This document shows positions 21,592-43,327 of a DNA stretch of 45,701 bases, piece after piece. Numbering within the stretch: position 1 is the first letter of the stretch; every line of letters begins with the position of its first letter. Source of the DNA: Lachnospiraceae bacterium (GTDB lineage Bacteria > Bacillota > Clostridia > Lachnospirales > Lachnospiraceae); contig JAFYZH010000082.1 in the NCBI GenBank assembly GCA_017548765.1, forward strand, positions 1-45,701, written 5' to 3'. Below the pieces are notes generated by a model that was given only the letters and a program-made list of their open reading frames with translations, was not told the DNA's origin and searched no databases. A program made the translations under genes and the position numbers.

Positions 21592-21648
21592 TACCTTTTT
21601 AGACTTTTTCATGCATTTCCCCGCGCCGAGGACTTCCCGGGGGCTTCT

Positions 21649-21880
21649 CTTACGCGCATTTTCGGAAAATGCTTCCTTTTGCGCGTAAGATCGCACTGAC
21701 CCGGAAGTATATCTTACGCGTATTTTGGTGAAAAGCTTCCTTTTGCGCGTAAGATCGCACTGACCCGGAAGCTTTTCTTACGCGCATTTTGGTGAAAAGC
21801 TTCCTTTTGCGCGTAAGAGCGCACTGACCCGGAAGCCTTTCTTACGCGTATTTTGGTGAAAAGCTTCCTTTTGCGCGTAA
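21649..21880. repeat. 64-bp tandem repeats, each containing a palindrome
   Basis: Three full units (21649-21712, 21713-21776, 21777-21840) and a 40-bp partial fourth (21841-21880) with a period of exactly 64 bp and high identity. Every unit begins CTTACGCGCA or CTTACGCGTA and has TGCGCGTAAG 21 nt later, so each can form a 10-bp hairpin; the spacer ATCGCACTGACCCGGAAG is conserved. Because 64 is not a multiple of three, reading frames through it shift at each unit, which argues against a coding repeat. It lies between the mgtE stop and the arginine-operon promoter. Confidence 0.95.
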
Positions 21881-23415: not shown

Positions 23416-23582
23416 CGAATACTACGGATTGCTCCGCGCTTTGCGCTCTCGAAATCCTACGACCATTCGCCATCCTCCTCGTTTCCCTTCGGGAACCGGG
23501 ATGGCTCATGTTCGTTCGGTTCTCAAGGTCCCGTATGCGAATGCAAGCATTCGCAACGTGGACTTTTCGAACCTAGTATTCG
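23416..23582 (-). ncRNA. Candidate structured RNA: four-helix junction between clpX and mgtE
   Basis: On the minus strand a closing stem CGAATACTA (23582-23574) with TAGTATTCG (23424-23416) encloses three hairpins. P2: GGTTC/GAACC, then GTCC/GGAC, then GCGAATGC/GCATTCGC (plus 23537-23554). P3: GCCATCC/GGATGGC with a TTCCC-GAAG-GGAA type tip. P4: GGATT/AATCC with GCGC-AAA-GCGC. The element begins one base after the clpX stop codon and ends 53 nt before the mgtE start. No U-tract follows, so it is not a simple terminator. It could be a regulatory leader of mgtE, a processed RNA, or a dispersed intergenic repeat; the sequence alone cannot decide. Confidence 0.6.
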
Positions 23583-41749: not shown

Positions 41750-41774
41750 TTCTTTTGCGTTTACGTTTTTCAGC

Positions 41775-42161
41775 CTGCGCTCCGCGAGCACATGGCGGAC
41801 GCAGACCGGTTTTTAACTTCGGCCATCGCAGCCTCTATCTCCGGCCGAGGCGTTTCGTGATTGCGATCGCAAGGCGGGCATTGATCGAGCTGTAGATCAT
41901 CTTCGCGAGAGAGGATCCGGATCAGGGGCAAAAACCGAATCTCCGAGATCGGTTTTTGCGTTCGCTGAGGTCGTTTTCGCGTCAGGCGGGAGCCTGGCGC
42001 TATCAAGAAAACGGCCGAAGTCGAAAAGGAACCCCTGAAATCCGGATCCGGTTCGAGCGACTAGATGATCACAGCGCAGTGAACCTGCCCGCCGGTGATC
42101 GCATCACGAAGTAAACAAACCGGCCGGAGCAGAATCCTGCCCCGGCCGAAGTTCAAAACCG
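41775..42161. other. Large nested foldback; candidate structured RNA or foldback element
   Basis: Seven colinear helices pair the two halves: 41807-41824 with 42144-42161 (17 of 18 bp), 41839-41846 with 42122-42129, 41854-41868 with 42097-42110 (14 bp, one bulge), 41873-41880 with 42086-42093, 41889-41902 with 42063-42075 (13 bp, one bulge), 41903-41906 with 42057-42060, and 41913-41928 with 42032-42049 (16 bp, AA bulge). The tip carries two hairpins: 41929-41938 with 41949-41958, and 41972-41987 with 41992-42013. A further hairpin (41775-41804) abuts the left end. About 80 bp of long-range pairing in nested order is far beyond chance. The right arm ends exactly at the stop codon of the serine-hydrolase gene. 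Confidence 0.7.
42121..42148 (-). terminator. Terminator of the serine-hydrolase operon
   Basis: CGGCCGG (42121-42127) with CCGGCCG (42142-42148) and GCAG with CTGC inside, one A-C mismatch, AATC loop. On the minus strand it is followed by GTTTGTTTAC. It uses sequence that also pairs in the large foldback, so the two structures exclude each other. Confidence 0.8.
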
Positions 42162-43298
42162 TCACTCTCCGAACACCATGTCGCGGAGCGTGGGATGAAT
42201 ATTTCCATAGCTGTAGCCGTGGTTGCGGACGTGTTCGATGTAGACCAGTGCGGTCTTCGATGCTGTGTCCATGGTCACGCAACTGCCGGCGGCGCCGTCC
42301 CAGCCGAACACGCCGGCGGGCGATGTCGATCCGATCTTCGCGGGCTCCATGAGTACCTGCATTCCGATACCGTAGCCATAGCCGACGCGGCCCATCGTCG
42401 TCGCGATATCGCGGCGGGATGCCTCGCCGAGCAGGTTCTTCTTGATCAATTCAACACTTTCGGGACGCAGGATCTTCGCTCCGTTCGCCGCGGTTCCACC
42501 GCAGGCGAGCATGTCGCCCAGGCGCGCGTAGTCCTCAGCACAACTGATCAGGCCTGCACCGCCGCTCTCGTAAGCCTCCGAAAGCTGGTAGTTGCAAGTC
42601 TGCTCCATGGTGACGATCTCGCCGCGCTCATTGCAGATCCACTGCTGCGCCAGACGCGGCAGGCCCGCATTGTCCGGCTTCGCGAAGAAGGTGTTTGTCA
42701 TGCCGACCGGCTCCCAGATCGTCTTCTTCAGGTACTCGCCGAAGGACATGCCGCTGGCCACCTCGATCACGGCAGCGACCACATCGTGGCTCAGGCTGTA
42801 CAAAAAGTGTGAGCCCGGCTCGAATTTCAGCGGTGATTCGGTAAATGCGTCCACGATCTCGCGGGTCGTGGCCTGCGGGCCACGCTCCTTCAAAACGCGG
42901 ACGATGCCCGGCCGCGCCAGGTCATAATCCAGACCCGACTGCATGGACACCAGATGCCAGATCAGCAGCTGCGTCTTCGCAGGAACTGCGCCGTCCGGAG
43001 TCTCCACCATCAGGTCGTTATAGGCAGGCAGATATTTGCCGACAGGATCGGAAAGCGAAACCTTGCCCTGCTCCACGAGGGTCATCAGCACCGTCATGGT
43101 CTGCACCTTCGTCATGGAAAACATAATGTAGAGCTGGTCCTGCGACACTGCCTGCGTACGCGCGGCATCGGCCGTGCCCGCTGTGTGGCGGTAGACCTGC
43201 TTATGGTCCTGCATCACGATACAGTCGACCGAAGGCACGCCGCCCTCGACCAGGCTGTCCAAATACTCTGTTATCTTCTGAAGATCGATCTCTTTCAT
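42162..43298 (-). CDS. Beta-lactamase/DD-peptidase-family serine hydrolase
   Basis: 378 aa, class C beta-lactamase-like fold. The nucleophile motif is SMTK (FSMTKVQTM, about 61-64), the second motif is YSLSHD (tyrosine of YxN type), and the third KTG-like motif is GWDGAAG. No signal peptide or membrane segment is seen, so it is probably cytoplasmic and acts as an esterase or peptidase rather than a resistance enzyme. GGAGG is 6 nt before the ATG at 43298; the longer frame to 43316 lacks support. It is last in an operon with a PLDc_N protein and an ABC-2 exporter, 29 nt after the permease gene. Confidence 0.9.
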   Translation of the reverse strand: MKEIDLQKITEYLDSLVEGGVPSVDCIVMQDHKQVYRHTAGTADAARTQAVSQDQLYIMFSMTKVQTMTVLMTLVEQGKVSLSDPVGKYLPAYNDLMVETPDGAVPAKTQLLIWHLVSMQSGLDYDLARPGIVRVLKERGPQATTREIVDAFTESPLKFEPGSHFLYSLSHDVVAAVIEVASGMSFGEYLKKTIWEPVGMTNTFFAKPDNAGLPRLAQQWICNERGEIVTMEQTCNYQLSEAYESGGAGLISCAEDYARLGDMLACGGTAANGAKILRPESVELIKKNLLGEASRRDIATTMGRVGYGYGIGMQVLMEPAKIGSTSPAGVFGWDGAAGSCVTMDTASKTALVYIEHVRNHGYSYGNIHPTLRDMVFGE

Positions 43299-43327
43299 CG
43301 TAAACCTCCGATACATTTATTTTCCGG

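Follow-up and report, generated by a model that had tools for sequence, protein, structure and literature searches.

What is the long foldback that fills the gap between two convergent genes in this Lachnospiraceae genome, and how did it come to lie there? The window (the whole stretch of DNA analysed, 45,701 nt) had been described in an earlier note, made from the letters alone, as carrying a 390-base nested foldback at this place. The foldback is real. RNA folding of the + strand from 41765 to 42170 gave a minimum free energy of -223.9 kcal/mol, against -144.46 ± 6.42 kcal/mol for 100 shuffled sequences (z -12.37), none of which (0/100) folded as well, and the nested stem was present in the predicted fold. 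The - strand of the foldback was also far better than shuffled sequence (-212.2 kcal/mol, z -10.95). Both apex hairpins proposed in the note were recovered (41929-41958 and about 41972-42014). An ordinary terminator accounted for a small part only, as the note had held: it covers 30 nt of the - strand (42120-42149), and we rejected it as the whole explanation. This terminator lies inside the right arm, therefore the foldback and the terminator folds would compete. The note placed the end of the right arm precisely at the serine hydrolase stop codon; instead, pairing takes in this codon and reaches some 38 nt into the 3' end of the gene. The features of the site are:

41769..41861, + strand: left arm as aligned, including the left inner arm; a diverged inverted copy of the serine hydrolase terminator and coding end
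41853..41869, + strand: left inner arm (predicted fold; its partner is 42094-42111)
41865..42100, + strand: core of the element (positions 1-235 of covariance model R1; 272.7 bits, the window copy being among the 20 sequences of the model)
41883..41896, + strand: conserved base motif of the 5' side, GATCGAGCTGTAGA (near-invariant columns in 20 copies)
41929..41958, + strand: apical hairpin 1, CAAAAACCGA/TCGGTTTTTG (predicted fold; paired changes)
about 41972..42014, + strand: apical hairpin 2, with the top GCGTCAGGC-GGGA-GCCTGGCGC (predicted fold; alignment of copies)
42070..42084, + strand: conserved base motif of the 3' side, CACAGCGCAGTGAAC (near-invariant columns in 20 copies)
42094..42111, + strand: right inner arm (predicted fold)
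42103..42199, + strand: right arm as aligned (serine hydrolase terminator, stop codon and last coding bases)
42120..42149, - strand: intrinsic terminator of the serine hydrolase gene
42162..43316, - strand: serine hydrolase of a beta-lactamase-like family (PF00144), running toward the element

The window foldback belongs to a family of giant hairpin repeats of gut and rumen bacteria, widespread and apparently undescribed, that has some 20 to 30 copies per genome. BLASTN gave 23 matches in the window's own genome, and found the element in 6/6 same-genus genomes and in 0/55 other relatives (12 first-look candidates scored per genome). The covariance model R1, which represents the ~235-nt core and was built from 20 copies, had 155 matches in six genomes of the home genus, 21 to 33 in each; the homologous copies for which the earlier note had proposed a search are thus plentiful. 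The follow-up used 150 of the 155 matches, with DNA for 149 of these. Among 60 genomes, R1 also matched G031 and G075, from two other genera. With a G031 copy as query, BLASTN gave about 40 further places in that genome (the 43 rows also count the query, its own inverse and one match lying outside the element). R2, a broader model of 29 sequences for which six candidates were scored in each genome, matched 24 of 397 Lachnospiraceae genomes, belonging to 19 of 334 genera. Copies were present in G075 and G260, both single-contig genomes.

A pattern scan of 84,980 genomes returned 28 stretches, including some from the metagenome assemblies RGIG7973, RGIG8251, UBA1201, RUG508 and STE_209, four of which are labelled Lachnospiraceae and one (RUG508) Clostridiales. 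Five of the 28 stretches were checked with the model: L307 and L309 were confirmed, L312 and L316 had no match, and L325, with 15.6 bits (E 0.003), was treated as unconfirmed. Three further assemblies from the scan are unconfirmed. The phage and plasmid collections searched gave no match and the viral contigs no pattern match, and we rejected a phage or plasmid origin on this basis. At the Rfam gathering score there was no match for the window or for 13 loci. At E up to 5, the window foldback had two sub-threshold matches; a known RNA family was rejected, the miRNA-precursor matches being weak and far below their gathering scores. In the literature covered, mostly texts outside subscription, we found no published description of this family. 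Several contigs end at or near copies (G000:C38:7, G000:C81:73, G005:C29:1 and others); assemblies therefore seem to break there, and the copy numbers are perhaps underestimates. In L046 (G003:C43), at about positions 1857-1930 of that locus, a second, partial copy of the core 5' half lies near a full copy. A different repeat is found elsewhere in the window, at 21636-21880: three copies of a 117-nt direct repeat, with a 64-nt spacing and 88-91% identity.

The copies of the element have in common a branched core. RNAalifold on the core alignment gave 53 pairs, 23 of them changed on both sides. In the core stems 96.1% of the cells pair, and the covariation score was 0.287, compared to 0.102 ± 0.008 for shuffled and at most 0.084 for slid alignments. 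Compensatory base changes within a conserved fold, a hallmark of structured RNA and one of the checks proposed in the earlier note, are strong here. Folding energy, homologous copies and compensation, three grounds on which the note's observation could have failed, all left it standing. Unpaired or mismatched motifs are conserved at the base of the core, as are the two apical hairpins; the extra GCGTCAGGC/GCCTGGCGC top of hairpin 2 was missing in 6 of the 20 aligned copies. Across genera the CATCA loop of hairpin 2 and the flanking CTGAR and YGAAT strings recur (by eye), and the stems vary. Because conserved mismatches persist in the core, it is probably not itself re-made during copying. Covariation alone cannot separate RNA function from copying at the DNA level, and the family warns against taking it as proof of RNA function.

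Relative to genes, the polarity of the element is fixed. It lies just past a gene 3' end, and in the orientation of the window + strand the right-hand gene runs toward it. Among 140 copies scoring 60 bits or more, 111 had an ORF of 100 aa or longer that ended between -40 and 300 nt from the core (median distance 96 nt, quartiles 79 and 130). By stricter rules, with genes called by ORF length only and 22 of 130 copies near contig edges set aside, 108 copies could be evaluated: 56 had a gene end to the right only, 30 had gene ends to both sides, 4 had one to the left only and 18 had one to neither side. The corresponding numbers for 25 copies of G031 were 15, 2, 2 and 6, and 14 of 17 right-hand distances were 10-33 nt. 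At 16 loci of other genera, the right-hand gene end was within 122 nt in 14 and a left-hand one within 300 nt in 7. Close pairs of copies were divergent in 21 of 22 cases and tandem in one, the arrangement to be expected where two convergent genes have a copy each. A common family of adjacent genes was rejected, the neighbouring genes being diverse. The distance from the terminator T tract to the core was not fixed in the home genus (10th-90th percentile 37-114 nt); the terminator test is permissive, with 81/95 real and 44/95 shuffled sequences positive. The family represents widespread, apparently unnamed giant hairpins at gene 3' ends in an abundant gut family.

Outside the core, the arms behave differently from the stems. 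In the home genus, pairing extends outward through the terminator of the neighbouring gene, and in some copies into its coding sequence. The left arm of the window (about 41769-41861) aligned to the inverse of about 42103-42199 with a score of 75, whereas pairs from different loci had a median of 27 and a 95th percentile of 43. Judged from this alignment, the left arm is a diverged inverted copy of the serine hydrolase gene end. Inverted matching to the neighbour's last 90 coding bases was scored in the 95 copies that had sufficient flank and a gene of 140 aa or more: 18 of them lay above the 99th percentile of pairs from other loci, where 1 was expected. Orthologous sites are among the 18, so that the number of events is smaller, and G002:C57 at least matches through a REP-like repeat.

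The arms are clearest in G031, where nearly perfect inverted arms, specific to each locus, lie on either side of the core. The border CA/G...C/GTCC (slashes marking the junctions) was seen in 20 of 28 distinct rows; 29 rows were listed, one of them being the reverse reading of the same place. Local alignment of the arms in 26 of the 28 rows, leaving out two without arms of 30 bases, gave 1577 matches, 39 mismatches and 12 gap positions, that is 2.4% mismatch (39/1616). In the core stems, 88 of 1636 cells were non-Watson-Crick (5.4%). Global alignment gave 28 mismatches in 1400 positions, plus 42 gap positions, for 25 copies, a set that drops the reverse-read row, two rows with fewer than 30 matched arm bases and one with 7 mismatches. 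The treatment of gaps thus decides whether the arms pair better than the core stems or about equally well. Between 14 comparable G031 copies the identity was 43% in the arms (16% when shuffled) and 77% in the core. Beyond these 14 related copies the arms were unrelated, so that terminal repeats common to the copies, by which MITEs and foldback elements are recognised, are mostly lacking. In one G031 group the arms have common outer ends and are therefore partly inherited. At 16 loci of other genera the arms had 22-123 matched bases, with at most 5 mismatches in 12 and 7-15 in 4. Mainly because the arm sequence is poorly conserved yet well paired, we infer that the second arm was copied from the first. 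Arms that are barely conserved yet nearly fully paired offer a natural readout of the copying and correction of long palindromes in bacteria.

The history of the window site was followed in sister genomes. G005 has neither core nor inverted copy at this locus, i.e., an empty site. In G003, the closest relative by identity, the core is gone, the join lies at a 6-base direct repeat and the left inverted copy is kept. G002 and G004 are without core as well. In G001 (L196, G001:C74), about 2.9 kb of other DNA lies between the same two convergent genes. Our reading of this comparison is that the insertion and the inverted copy would postdate the split from G005, and that G003 would carry a later deletion scar. 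At another site the outer inverted copy was common to three genomes, and the inner arms and core of G000 differed from those of the other two. Orthologous sites whose neighbour proteins are 96-100% identical had cores up to 37% different. Cores seem to have been replaced at fixed sites.

The earlier note had seen in the foldback either a large structured RNA or an old foldback element, and had suggested that it could act as a switchable 3'-end structure. It is a repeat element (155 matches in six genomes, present or absent at an orthologous site), and it has a structured core with compensatory change. The word "old" was half right: there are many copies, in 19 sampled genera, and the cores seem to be replaced at fixed sites.

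Changes within the cores were counted as paired or single. Between orthologous-site cores, paired changes exceeded single ones above 15% divergence, for example 74 vs 37 at 20-25%, and at 10-15% divergence there were 16 paired vs 23 single. For the home genus, the pair statistics cover the 125 cores that are longer than 190 nt and score 100 bits or more; the most similar of them (<5% divergence) had 30 single changes and 1 double. Double vs single changes showed no clear difference between paralogues and orthologues. The single changes, and paralogues that resemble orthologues, weigh in the home genus against a strong form of re-copying tied to movement. The closest copies of G031 had 78 paired vs 32 single changes (10 comparisons under 15% divergence).

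Which process would produce such a family? We give about an even chance to a dispersed Lachnospiraceae foldback element that sits in one polarity past gene 3' ends, with a folded single-strand core and with arms kept complementary by copying. Dispersal, polarity, presence and absence, the conserved branched fold and the locus-specific, nearly perfectly complementary arms are observations. It would be in folded, single-stranded form, as ssDNA or RNA, that the core is recognised or acts. At the foot of the folded core, a 3' end may then snap back and prime synthesis along the opposite arm; alternatively, a polymerase may switch templates at the hairpin. If copying overran the element, the terminator and gene end of the neighbour would be added in inverted form, as is seen in the window. 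Snap-back copying would be the simplest account, because the arms match, the pairing is continuous and gene ends are inverted. Against arm copying stand the G031 arms, which with gaps counted are only about as well paired as the core stems, the 4 of 16 other-genus loci with 7-15 arm mismatches, and the search for an enzyme, in which none was found.

As to such an enzyme, Y1 transposase genes were found in 5 of 8 carriers tested, with none in G000, G001 and G004 (incomplete assemblies), and in 14 of 18 genomes without known element. Of 16 carriers 14 had RVT_1, as did 13 of 16 other genomes; it was not detected in the carriers G031 and G062. A reverse transcriptase or a Y1 transposase as universal mobiliser was rejected, since neither was found in every carrier tested. 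The GGGGACGG repeats stand inverted on the two sides of Y1 (RAYT-type) genes at L248 (G005), L250 (G003) and L251 (G002).

A bolder version of the arm-copying element, which we put forward tentatively and with more doubt than belief, would be a mobile element of a new kind: the branched single-strand core alone would travel, and the second arm would be rebuilt by snap-back at each move. Its terminal repeats would be locus-specific, nearly perfect and able to capture an inverted end of the neighbouring gene. Were the arms made afresh with every move, terminal repeats would not have to be inherited, a new principle for mobile elements.

The conserved loops, with stems that vary freely across genera, the strong covariation and the fixed place after genes would all suit a structured RNA domain of gene 3' ends (a terminator, an mRNA-stabilising hairpin or an antisense RNA), its pairing kept purely by RNA selection and its spread due to rare duplication or recombination. 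We regard this as possible, if rather doubtful. On the window + strand G-U exceeded A-C pairs in the mixed genera (23 vs 6, excluding reverse-strand matches) and in the home genus (93 vs 63), in favour of RNA, but in G031 the two were equal (27 vs 25); this test is weak for RNA versus DNA and for the strand, because the control Clostridiales-1 RNA gave 13 vs 4 in 18 sequences. Nearly perfect arms of up to 100 or more base pairs with unrelated sequences go beyond what a known RNA fold should need, the inverted gene-end copies require a copying event, and the window site showed no sigma-70-like promoter. The mechanism may be either that of a foldback element that copies its own arm or that of a structured RNA of gene 3' ends.

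We think it unlikely that the element is a giant REP-like sequence moved in trans by a Y1 (RAYT) transposase. Some home-genus copies have GGGGACGG repeats in their arms, the Y1 genes of G002, G003 and G005 are flanked by the same repeats, and the G031 borders are sharp, with GGAC before the hairpin; however, no Y1 gene was found in the carriers G000, G001 and G004, 14 of 18 genomes not known as carriers do have one, and the repeat beside the RAYT gene of G031 is a different one. Very unlikely, in our view, is an ordinary MITE with inherited terminal repeats whose arms were homogenised later by gene conversion or template switching. Homogenisation of arms by template switching has been described in yeast, in the part of the account available (PMC8604942), and the element is multi-copy and short, with inverted arms and no gene inside. 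Yet the arms have mostly unrelated sequences from one locus to the next, the element keeps a single polarity with respect to genes, the 28 G031 borders, read by eye, showed no evident target duplication, and no parent transposon was found among the Y1 and RVT_1 families. The named carriers are metagenome assemblies, some with contigs that end at copies, as an assembly or chance artefact might have it, but the z of -12.4, the many genera and the copies in the single-contig G075 and G260 make this scarcely credible.

Among known systems, REP/BIME sequences, moved by RAYT/Y1, are dispersed hairpins near gene 3' ends with stem mismatches and a short motif at the hairpin foot. The element resembles them in all these respects, but is tenfold longer, with a branched core and locus-specific arms, and Y1 was not found in every carrier tested. 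MITEs and foldback elements are short and multi-copy, with inverted arms and no gene inside. This holds for the element too; it differs in terminal arms that are mostly not common to copies, in its fixed polarity and in that no target duplication is evident by eye at the G031 borders. Group IIC introns sit just past terminators in a single orientation, as the element does, but the window and 13 loci had no group II intron match in Rfam, and RVT_1 was not found in the carriers G031 and G062. Integron attC sites have a GTTRRRY core site and an integrase; no border of the GTTRRRY type was seen among the G031 borders, read by eye. Clostridiales-1 RNA (RF01699) is a multi-copy structured repeat of the same family, with a similar TGAG / CGAAT internal loop by eye. 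It is not a giant foldback, however, with no long arms in 18 copies examined, and the element had no match to the RF01699 model at E up to 5. Clostridiales-1 itself occurs in the window (23417-23581, - strand). It is highly multi-copy: 32 of the 60 family genomes had matches to it, the window's genome having 8 and some genomes over 30 among the matches listed. The element carriers G031 and G075 had none. Template switching between inverted-repeat arms is described for short repeats in yeast coding genes in the available part of PMC8604942. These repeats, unlike the element, are not a multi-copy family; the likeness lies in a copying process that makes the two arms match.
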